This document shows, piece after piece, positions 59,249 through 62,148 of a stretch of 64,000 bases of DNA. A model generated the notes under the pieces. It was given only the letters and a program-made list of their open reading frames with translations, did not search any database and was not told where the DNA came from. Source of the stretch: Ruegeria atlantica (GTDB taxonomy: Bacteria > Pseudomonadota > Alphaproteobacteria > Rhodobacterales > Rhodobacteraceae); the NCBI RefSeq assembly GCF_001458195.1, contig NZ_CYPU01000039.1, positions 310,093-374,092 of the forward strand, written 5' to 3'. The translations under genes and the position numbers were made by a program. Every line of letters starts with the position of its first letter. Position 1 is the first letter of the stretch.

Positions 59249-59410
59249 CCCCCCGTCTTAGCCAAACGCTCGGACAGAGTCATTCGGTTGTTCGAGCAAA
59301 GTCAGATGTTTTGGTCATTGCTGTTGATCAACGGAGTTAGTCGTTGAACGGATCGCAGGAATATGAATTCATGATCACGTACTGGATCCTCGGTGAAAGG
59401 GACGCTCTTA
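59249..59410. promoter_or_regulatory. TfoX-like / CHAD divergent promoter region
   Basis: A 162-bp gap with a modestly AT-rich part at 59280-59390. It should hold promoters for the TfoX-like gene and the CHAD-ParA-CYTH operon. No terminator or known operator was identified. Confidence 0.4.
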
Positions 59411-60925
59411 ATGGCTCGGGTCAAAAACTGTTTTGTTATCCCGGGCACATTCGATGAGGCGGGTTTTACTAAATCTTTGAAAGAACTGGCATTGCGGTTC
59501 GAGGCCGCTCAACCTGCTGGAAATTTTGATATTCTGGATTGCCATGACCAATCCCTCAGGGCATCTGCTAAGGTTTTGATCCAAACCGATGGGTCACTGT
59601 TTTTGTTGCGCGGCGGTAGAGCCGAAACCCAGCGGTGCAAGGTTAAGGGCAAGTTCGTGCAGGATTTGCCTGACGGATCCGTCAAAGCGGGTCTAGCGGG
59701 CTTTCCCAAGTTGCGCGCGTTGATGAGCGTCGGAGCGGGCAGAGCCAAGCACCGATCATTTGCCATTCTGGGTGACCTGCAAAAGACACAAGTGCGTGGC
59801 ACGATGATGTTGATGTCCTCGGATCAGGGGCAGGTAACAGTTGTAACCGTTCAACACATGCGCGGATATGACCGGGCGTATAAGACTGTTTGTGAAAAGC
59901 TTACGAAATTGGAGGGTGGCAAAAGCAAGGCTAAGCCATTGTTCGACTGGTTGTTTCCCGACGCGACCATATACAAGGCCAAGCCCGAAATCCGCGTTTG
60001 TAAACAAGAGCCATCAATCGAGGTCGCCACAGACATCATTCGCACCTATCTGGCGGTCGCGCGCCAGAATGAGGCGGGCGTGATCCATGATATCGATACT
60101 GAATTTCTGCATGACTACCGCGTTTCCCTGCGCCGCGTGCGATCTGTGATCAGCCTGTTCAAGGGGGTGCTCTCGCCTGAACAAACCGCTGCGTTAAAGC
60201 GCGAGTTTTCCGGTCTGATGGAACCCACTGGACGAGCGCGGGACTTGGACGTCTATCTGTTGGAAAAAGACAGTTACTTCAATCTGATACCGCCGAACCT
60301 TCATGAAGGTGCCGTGGCCATGTTTGTGCAATTCGAAAGGGAACGCAGCCAGGCACTTGGACGTCTGTCTCGGCGCTTTCGGACGCAGAGCTATGACAAT
60401 CAGATGAAAAAGTTGACCAAGCTTTTCGCTGATCCGACAAACCTGCAGCCTGGCCCAAATGCAGATCGGCCTGCCTATGAATACGCGCGCGCCCTGATCT
60501 GGAAGCGATATCGCAAAGCCTGCAAACTGGCGCGCGGCATTACGCCAAACACGCCTGACGAATCTGTGCATAATCTGCGGATCGACTGCAAAAAACTGCG
60601 TTATCTTATGGAGTTCTTTGCGCCTTTGTTCGACGCAAAGGCATTCAAAACGATCATCAAGTCATTGAAAAAGCTTCAGGATAATCTGGGCCTGTTCAAT
60701 GATTTCTCAGTCCAACAAGAGGCGCTTCTGAATTTTGTGAAACAGCACACCAATAAGCAAGGCCGCGCTGATGCGCAGTTGACCTTGTCCGTGGGCGGGC
60801 TGATTTCTGTTCTGGATCAGCGCCAATTGGCGGAACGTGACCGTGTCATCGCAAGTTTCAAGCATTTCGACAGCCCGGACATCCGGCACCTGTTCCGCAG
60901 TTTGTTTCATCAAAAGGAGGGCTGA
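59411..60925 (+). CDS. CHAD-domain protein with degenerate CYTH N-terminus
   Basis: A 504-residue protein. Residues 200-500 are the CHAD helical bundle, with conserved His and Lys/Arg in FLHDYRVSLRRVRSVI and SVHNLRIDCKKLRYLMEFF. The N-terminal 190 residues resemble the CYTH half of CYTH-CHAD fusions (FVQDLPDGSVKAGL, then RALMSVGAGRAKHRS) but lack the usual ExExK start, so it is probably catalytically dead. CHAD domains bind polyphosphate and target granules. A GTG six codons upstream is possible. The next gene starts 3 bp after the stop. Confidence 0.85.
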   Translation: MARVKNCFVIPGTFDEAGFTKSLKELALRFEAAQPAGNFDILDCHDQSLRASAKVLIQTDGSLFLLRGGRAETQRCKVKGKFVQDLPDGSVKAGLAGFPKLRALMSVGAGRAKHRSFAILGDLQKTQVRGTMMLMSSDQGQVTVVTVQHMRGYDRAYKTVCEKLTKLEGGKSKAKPLFDWLFPDATIYKAKPEIRVCKQEPSIEVATDIIRTYLAVARQNEAGVIHDIDTEFLHDYRVSLRRVRSVISLFKGVLSPEQTAALKREFSGLMEPTGRARDLDVYLLEKDSYFNLIPPNLHEGAVAMFVQFERERSQALGRLSRRFRTQSYDNQMKKLTKLFADPTNLQPGPNADRPAYEYARALIWKRYRKACKLARGITPNTPDESVHNLRIDCKKLRYLMEFFAPLFDAKAFKTIIKSLKKLQDNLGLFNDFSVQQEALLNFVKQHTNKQGRADAQLTLSVGGLISVLDQRQLAERDRVIASFKHFDSPDIRHLFRSLFHQKEG

Positions 60926-60928
60926 GGA

Positions 60929-61684
60929 GTGAAGATCATTGCCTGTTACAGCAACAAGGGCGGTGTGGGTAAAACCGCGACCTCGGTCAATCTGGCCCGT
61001 GCCTACGCAGCAGCGGGGCACAAAGTTCTGCTGTGCGATCTGGATCCGCAAGGGGCATCCGGGTTCTATCTGCGCGTCAAACCGTCCAAAAAGCTGACAG
61101 ATGCAAGGTTCTTTGAGGATGTCGCGCGGTTCACCAAGTCCATTCGCGCCAGTGACTTCGAGGGGCTGGACGTGCTGCCAGCAAACATGACCTTTCGGGA
61201 TTTTGACGTCTTCCTGTCACGGATGCGGAACACGCGGTCGCGGTTGAAAAAAGCGCTGATCTCGGCGGGCAGCGACTATGAGGTGATCATTCTGGATTGC
61301 CCGCCCAACTTTTCGACCCTGTCGGAAAACATCTTCAAGGCGGCCGATCAGATTGTGGTTCCGGTCATCCCGACGACCCTGTCTGAACGGTCTTTCGATC
61401 AGTTGGTTGGGTTTTTTGATGCCAACAAGTTGTCGAAGAAAAAGCTGACGGCATTCTTCTCCATGGTGCAACAGCGCAAGACCCTGCACCTTGAGACTAT
61501 GGATGCGATGCGAAAGCTCTATCGCAAACGGTTCCTGCACAGCTCAATCCCGTTTGCGGCGGATATCGAACGGATGGGGCAGAACCGTGCGCCGGTCAGT
61601 GAATTCGCCCCGCGCAGCGCCGCCAGCTTGGCATATCAAAAGCTGTATAATGAGATGGAAAACGGAGTGGTTTCAAAGCGATGA
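60929..61684 (+). CDS. ParA-family ATPase in the CHAD/CYTH operon
   Basis: A 251-residue P-loop ATPase. The deviant Walker A is NKGGVGKT near residue 9, the second lysine-bearing loop is CDLDPQGASGF, and LDCPPNFSTL is the Walker B region. It starts with GTG (after GAGGA) and overlaps the CYTH gene by 4 bp. No ParB gene is beside it. Position between two polyphosphate-related genes suggests granule placement, in the way ParA-like McdA places carboxysomes; this is inference. Confidence 0.88.
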   Translation: MKIIACYSNKGGVGKTATSVNLARAYAAAGHKVLLCDLDPQGASGFYLRVKPSKKLTDARFFEDVARFTKSIRASDFEGLDVLPANMTFRDFDVFLSRMRNTRSRLKKALISAGSDYEVIILDCPPNFSTLSENIFKAADQIVVPVIPTTLSERSFDQLVGFFDANKLSKKKLTAFFSMVQQRKTLHLETMDAMRKLYRKRFLHSSIPFAADIERMGQNRAPVSEFAPRSAASLAYQKLYNEMENGVVSKR

Positions 61685-62148
61685 GCACCGAAATTGAACG
61701 CAAATTTCTGGTGGCGGAACTGCCCGACCTTAGCGGCGCGGATAAGGCCGTCGTTCGCCAAGGTTATCTGACTGCACCGGACGATTCCACGGAATTGCGT
61801 CTGCGGCAAAAGAATGACAGGTACTTTTTGACGCTCAAAGGAGCGGGCTCCTTGGTGCGGGTGGAACGCGAGGCCGAGATCACGGCCGAGCAATTCGAAA
61901 CCTTCTGGCCGGAAACCGAAGGACGTCGGGTTGAGAAAGAACGCTATACCGGAAAAATGCTAGACGGTCGGGTGTTTGAGCTGGACATCTTTCTGGGAAG
62001 CCTCGCGCCGCTGCGGCTGGTCGAGGTTGAGTTCGAAACAGAGGCCGAGGCGCAGGAATACACGCCGCCCGACTGGTTCGGAACAGATGTGACGGCAGAT
62101 AAACGTTATAAAAACAAGATGATGGCGATCAAGGGTGTGCCAATCTAG
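61681..62148 (+). CDS. CYTH-domain (triphosphate tunnel) protein
   Basis: A 155-residue beta-barrel protein starting MSTEIERKFLV, the diagnostic ExExK motif. It keeps further charged residues (RLRQKNDRYFLTLKG, RVEREAEIT, ERYTG, ELDIFLG, LVEVEFETE, ADKRYKNKMMA) that line the tunnel for triphosphate or polyphosphate. The likely activity is inorganic triphosphatase. Its stop codon shares the CTAG with the stop of the convergent histidine kinase. Confidence 0.92.
   Translation: MSTEIERKFLVAELPDLSGADKAVVRQGYLTAPDDSTELRLRQKNDRYFLTLKGAGSLVRVEREAEITAEQFETFWPETEGRRVEKERYTGKMLDGRVFELDIFLGSLAPLRLVEVEFETEAEAQEYTPPDWFGTDVTADKRYKNKMMAIKGVPI

Follow-up and report, generated by a model that had tools for sequence, protein, structure and literature searches.

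A CHAD protein and a ParA-type ATPase are encoded side by side in the window, the 64,000-nucleotide stretch of Ruegeria atlantica DNA analysed here, and sequence comparison identifies this predicted combination of a polyphosphate-binding fold with ParA as a coupled, widely kept unit. That CHAD and this ParA constitute one functional unit is near certain. Polyphosphate is the phosphate-storage polymer of the cell, and ParA-type ATPases elsewhere move plasmids and organelles. We therefore favour, as probable, a reading in which ParA would drive the positioning or retention of polyphosphate bodies. The features of the operon are as follows:

59411..60925, + strand: CHAD protein (504 aa)
CHAD protein, residues ~1-189: CYTH/TTM-like fold without the ExExK motif
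CHAD protein, residues ~190-503: long (pore-type) CHAD domain
60929..61684, + strand: ParA-type ATPase (251 aa) with KGGVGKT, DLDPQG and DCPP motifs
61681..62148, + strand: free-standing CYTH protein (155 aa) with an intact EIERKF motif, a NeuTTM relative
59368..59410, + strand: apparent scar of a lost ribbon-helix-helix (RHH) gene and its upstream site, from alignment with Ruegeria loci

The three coupled genes described in the initial annotation are recovered at these positions, with a 3-bp gap between CHAD and ParA and a 4-bp overlap between ParA and CYTH. The conserved domains found by Pfam are CHAD (residues 209-439, E-value: 2.6e-60), AAA_31 (6.3e-37) and CYTH (1.4e-8). By family scan, the six ORFs flanking the trio are MFS, NDK, TfoX_C, a histidine kinase, a response regulator and an ABC ATPase. 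No ParB, which in a ParABS system stands beside ParA, is found among these six, in agreement with the earlier description of a ParA without ParB. Identity to Ruegeria sp. A3M17 is 97% for ParA and 92% for CHAD. A promoter and terminator scan was uninformative (2 promoter-like matches against 2.1 expected, 7 terminator-like matches against 4.7 expected).

The CHAD domain resembles polyphosphate-bound CtCHAD and has both the CHAD fold and the Pfam domain PF05235. Six residues of the CtCHAD central pore, for which polyphosphate binding was shown by mutation, are all present in the window CHAD protein (6/6) and in 59/59 relatives. The N-terminus matches CYTH/TTM proteins by fold alone, and ExExK, expected of a CYTH enzyme, is found within the first 60 residues of none of the 59 CHAD proteins; the degenerate CYTH N-terminus proposed earlier is thus confirmed. 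The separate CYTH protein is intact, as had also been proposed. It has the motif EIERK (an ExERK form is present in 45/46 CYTH ORFs of the 80 loci described below), and its best PDB matches are the N. europaea structures 3typ (4e-54) and 2fbl (7e-54), which we take to be NeuTTM. NeuTTM is a specific tripolyphosphatase according to excerpts of PMC3440374, and the free-standing CYTH, judged by sequence, resembles this enzyme. A CYTH protein 56% identical to that of the window is encoded in the same operon in Nitrosomonas sp. HPC101.

ParA begins at its P-loop and has no N-terminal HTH. The deviant Walker A motif with its signature lysine, the A' motif and the B motif are all kept, as expected of ParA/MinD ATPases. 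In a 72-row ParA set, KGGVGKT is retained in 71, DPQG in 68 and DCPP in 69, and lysine or arginine is found at position K184 in 92%, at R215 in 99% and at R220 in 100%. In the alignment, the window ParA has Phe at the position of the Soj IPRN arginine, which has a role in DNA binding, so that its binding to the nucleoid is uncertain despite the basic R215 and R220; this counts against positioning. CHAD-linked ParAs group on the tree, where 3 changes suffice and shuffled labels need 21. Distances between CHAD proteins rise with those between their ParAs (rho 0.79, n=57), a value reached in 0/1000 permutations. In a search of 14 genomes, a strong ParA match (4.9e-110 or better) was obtained in 11/11 with a linked ParA, while no trio-type ParA was found elsewhere in the genomes of three ParA-less loci (L076, L079 and L116). 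As these last show only one match each, at ~1e-35, the linked ParA is an additional ATPase. Ruegeria sp. R14_0 (L067) encodes a second ParA of the trio type (G566:C11:747471-748211, E-value: 9.4e-108) besides that of the operon.

Conservation of the arrangement was assessed in 80 loci, the best relatives of the window CHAD from a genome scan with a CHAD alignment; further relatives exist, and the set, chosen by similarity to the window CHAD, is rich in Ruegeria. ParA lies 3' of CHAD in 71/80 of these best relatives, or in 72 of the 78 readable loci counting L096, where the contig breaks off within ParA (L138 and L144, each at a contig edge, are unreadable). The strand is the same in 71/71, the approximate gap is <=30 bp in 68/71, and touching gene order is retained to ~30% CHAD identity. 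CYTH is found anywhere in the locus in 46/80, being 3' of CHAD on the same strand in 43 of the 46, and ParA and CYTH are both present in 43/80. The pair occurs under nine phylum labels (Pseudomonadota, Thermodesulfobacteriota, Myxococcota, Deferribacterota, Calditrichota, KSB1, Chloroflexota, Gemmatimonadota and Latescibacterota), those outside Pseudomonadota being mostly from MAG titles, as titled; L131 and L132 have near-identical ParAs under two phylum names. The check for which the initial annotation had called, that gene order be conserved outside close relatives, therefore came out in its favour. A CHAD-ParA fusion was also sought, and no ORF in the 80 loci bears two of the three labels.

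Viewed from the side of ParA, the linkage varies with the lineage. Among 198 genomes of the phylum of Desulfobacter, nine ParA matches (E <= 1e-70) were obtained, of which eight adjoin CHAD, the centre genome G563 included. Among 398 Pseudomonadota genomes, CHAD adjoins 7 of the 30 best ParA loci, the window's own included. No CHAD lies within 1.5 kb of the remaining 23, whose neighbours are mixed, and this counts against positioning. The 23 CHAD-free relatives are L035, L037, L039-L046 and L049-L061, and 19 of the 23 genomes encode CHAD elsewhere. No common partner was found beside these orphan ParAs among 10 proteins from 10 of the 23 loci, three of them without a family. The linked pair is found among 190 alphaproteobacteria only in the window's genome and in G126, and ParA is missing from six CHAD loci of the 80 (L076, L079, L110, L116, L117 and L121), in which tblastn detected no ParA remnant at E 1e-3; both the restricted occurrence and the missing ParAs also count against positioning. 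In a control set of ordinary CHAD loci from alphaproteobacteria (L004-L031, 28 loci), no trio-type ParA lies within 1.5 kb; two of these loci have a different ParA. CHAD and the ParA family also tend to share a genome without being neighbours: by raw counts that ignore relatedness, CHAD is present in 57/68 Pseudomonadota genomes with the ParA family (E 1.3e-35 or better) versus 136/330 others, and in 50/61 when adjacent pairs are set aside.

A second type of ParA is also associated with CHAD. In L014 and L026 the gene for this 215-aa protein immediately follows a fused CYTH-CHAD gene on its 3' side, and the protein scores only 42-45 bits against the trio ParA model; the low score suggests a separate recruitment. 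In 190 alphaproteobacterial genomes it has nine strong matches (E below 1e-50) and two weak ones. Five of the nine adjoin CHAD (G175, G051, G131, G080 and G082); the other four lie away from CHAD, which counts against positioning. The protein is short and ParA/MipZ-like, and its loci are L014, L026, L149-L151, L154 and L156.

Genes of polyphosphate metabolism are found near some of the 80 loci. With each cluster of neighbouring genes named from one Pfam-scanned representative, PPK1 is present within <=6 kb in 10 loci, PPX in 8 and PPK2 in 3 (any of these in 14/80), and NUDIX genes within the same distance in 17/80. On the Paracoccus marcusii plasmid pCP157_03 the gene order is pstA-pstB-phoU-phoB, two small genes, RHH, CHAD, ParA, CYTH, NUDIX and CYTH; the pst and pho genes lie upstream of the operon (L065 1-3013), with ~1.3 kb between phoB and RHH. 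The genome of the window gave no match to PPK1 and has three PPK2 genes, and the missing PPK1 counts against positioning. For Agrobacterium granules only ppk1 is essential, according to excerpts of PMC7595981. As PPK1 was not found, granules in the window's host are not assured, and the cargo there may instead be polyphosphate made by PPK2 or small CHAD-polyphosphate bodies. Near four gammaproteobacterial CHAD-ParA loci (L130, L133, L139 and L140) there is a gene for a Card1-like CARF nuclease, identified from one scanned representative.

A fourth gene, encoding a CopG-like RHH protein of ~50-80 aa, is located just 5' of CHAD in 23/80 loci, a count of strong matches that excludes L071, L097 and L106, which pass the model and look decayed or cut, and omits weaker traces in L070, L072, L078 and L143. 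The gene often overlaps CHAD by 4 bp and is distributed over alpha-, beta- and gammaproteobacteria, Desulfobacter and Desulfopila. Examples of its position, the first two from the 23 loci and the last two in addition to these, are:

L067, 5771-5980: RHH gene
L068, 5792-6001: RHH gene
L062, 4299-4487: RHH gene
L065, 4288-4476: RHH gene

The RHH proteins of the 23 loci have a lysine-rich N-tail (36% K/R, mean net charge +2.9), which may be a ParA-stimulating peptide. Two of four scanned match the ParG family PF09274 below the cut-off (E-values: 0.1 and 0.014). The palindrome TGACGTCA (<=1 mismatch) is present within 150 nt 5' of the RHH gene in 23/23 loci, against a shuffle mean of 1.2/23; because the motif was first noticed in these same loci, the count is better taken as descriptive than as a blind test. 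It is present in 4/58 control rows without an intact RHH gene, which include the window and decayed loci and in which the stretch was taken 5' of CHAD instead of 5' of RHH. The 12-mer CATGACGTCATG occurs once in G566, once in G567 and twice in G568, with one copy in each near the operon's ParA, and once each in G563 and G565, away from the operon or not matched to it. No exact copy was found in G000 (the window's genome), G564 or G570. This distribution of the 12-mer agrees more with an operator than with scattered centromeres. In loci that have it, the RHH protein is probably a regulator of the operon that acts by binding to the TGACGTCA site.

The window has no RHH ORF. The gene and an intact site are missing from the window, L066 and L078, which show a 173-column gap relative to L067 and L068 with matching flanks. 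The lineage of the window has apparently lost the RHH gene; the matching flanks, together with decayed traces in other Ruegeria loci, argue for loss rather than gain. The operon of this lineage was probably once RHH-CHAD-ParA-CYTH. This bears on the suggestion that the CHAD protein stands in for ParB as adaptor. In known ParA partners the N-terminus is disordered and carries positive charge (excerpts of PMC10241942). A conserved basic N-tail was looked for on CHAD and not found: over 25 N-terminal residues, the 59 proteins have a mean net charge of -0.2, close to neutral, and this counts against positioning. With the RHH gene missing from the window, a gene with such a tail was invisible to the initial annotation. 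The suggested ParB substitution is thus not established, but the wider idea of positioning gains from the coupling of ParA to a polyphosphate-binding protein under nine phylum labels, from polyphosphate enzymes near 14/80 loci and from the second ParA type beside CHAD.

Under the favoured reading the operon would work in the following way. The long CHAD domain would bind and coat polyphosphate, as shown for its relative CtCHAD, while ATP-bound ParA dimers would sit on the nucleoid. Polyphosphate-bound CHAD would then contact ParA and trigger ATP hydrolysis, perhaps through its CYTH-like domain or, where RHH is present, jointly with RHH; in the window, the CHAD protein would be the only constant candidate for the ParA stimulator. 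Polyphosphate bodies would follow, or be spaced by, the resulting ParA gradients, much as carboxysomes are by McdAB. The separate CYTH enzyme, if it acts like NeuTTM, would hydrolyse tripolyphosphate freed from the cargo. A bolder form of this model, which we advance tentatively and with slightly more doubt than belief, is a dedicated ATP-driven partition system for an inorganic polymer, in which CHAD-coated polyphosphate is transported or spaced over the nucleoid by ParA across many phyla, CHAD has recruited ParA more than once, and RHH serves in some lineages as repressor and ParA-stimulating partner. If polyphosphate is the cargo, no earlier case is known to us of a ParA acting on a cargo other than DNA or protein assemblies.

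ParA could instead be a non-spatial, ATP-dependent switch on CHAD that gates polyphosphate access to kinases, exopolyphosphatase or the CYTH enzyme. This is unlikely, although the CYTH, NUDIX, PPK1 and PPX genes of the operon or its neighbourhood would suit such a role, a large granule cargo is uncertain in a host without PPK1, and in ygiF the fused tripolyphosphatase is stimulated by CHAD (excerpts of PMC6537752). ParA/MinD ATPases encoded next to cargo genes usually position that cargo, according to excerpts of PMC10241942, and two distant ParA types adjoin CHAD; both points speak against a switch. Plain DNA partition ranks below positioning and is improbable. Here a ParG-like RHH would bind TGACGTCA as a centromere and ParA would segregate the replicon or locus, with CHAD and CYTH as passengers or as a polyphosphate anchor. 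The lysine-rich tail, the nearby palindrome (23/23 loci versus 4/58), the weak ParG matches and the carriage of the operon on Paracoccus plasmids are what such a cassette might show. However, RHH is intact in only 23/80 loci and gone from the window while ParA is intact, the sites number one or a few per locus with CATGACGTCATG counts that better fit an operator, and the constant partner is CHAD, not RHH.

Neutral co-transfer, in which the genes would be passed on together without any functional connection, is very improbable. The distribution is patchy and transfer is probable, as Nitrosomonas and Alcaligenaceae ParAs fall among those of Rhodobacterales on the tree. A block without function would nevertheless hardly keep a touching order to ~30% CHAD identity and across phylum labels with motifs and polyphosphate residues intact, and the second ParA type also adjoins CHAD. 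Positioning or retention of polyphosphate bodies thus remains our preferred reading.

The operon shares features with several known systems. Like McdAB, it has a ParA-type ATPase without ParB beside a protein expected on the body to be moved; in this case the adaptor would be a polyphosphate-binding CHAD protein. It has the short ParA without N-terminal HTH of the type Ib system ParF-ParG and, in 23/80 loci, a small RHH whose N-tail is basic, along with a palindrome, but it also carries CHAD and CYTH, RHH is often absent and the site is operator-like. As in ygiF and the TTM-CHAD phosins, CYTH accompanies CHAD and polyphosphate binding is expected; unlike in these, ExExK is missing from the CYTH-like half of the CHAD protein, an intact CYTH is separate and ParA is added. 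AlgP of Pseudomonas aeruginosa is a factor in the even spacing of polyphosphate granules (excerpts of PMC9239181 and PMC13052382) but is a histone H1-like DNA-binding protein, neither ParA nor CHAD. In the available parts of a 2025 review (PMC13052382), AlgP is the sole polyphosphate protein in the table and energy use in polyphosphate positioning is called an open question. The main text of PMC10241942, which treats multiple ParA/MinD cargos, does not contain "polyphosphate" or "CHAD". The initial annotation knew of no established description of the trio, and for function this holds within open-licence PMC text. It does not hold for the neighbourhood of parA and CHAD, which has been shown in Acidithiobacillus (excerpts of PMC10892726 and PMC6416229). 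There the order is folD-ppk-parA-CHAD, with parA near ppk and a CHAD gene; CYTH and CHAD are fused, and those excerpts deal with copper or cAMP and not with positioning.

The operon provides candidates for the ATPase, the adaptor and the regulator in the placement or sharing of polyphosphate granules. If the positioning reading is true, some of the orphan ParA ATPases would acquire a function and CHAD a role beyond granule binding. With these candidates named and with natural relatives that lack ParA or RHH, the question of polyphosphate placement is directly testable. Among the ParA-less loci, L076 and L079, both from Ruegeria, encode CHAD and CYTH with no ParA between them and are possible natural mutants.
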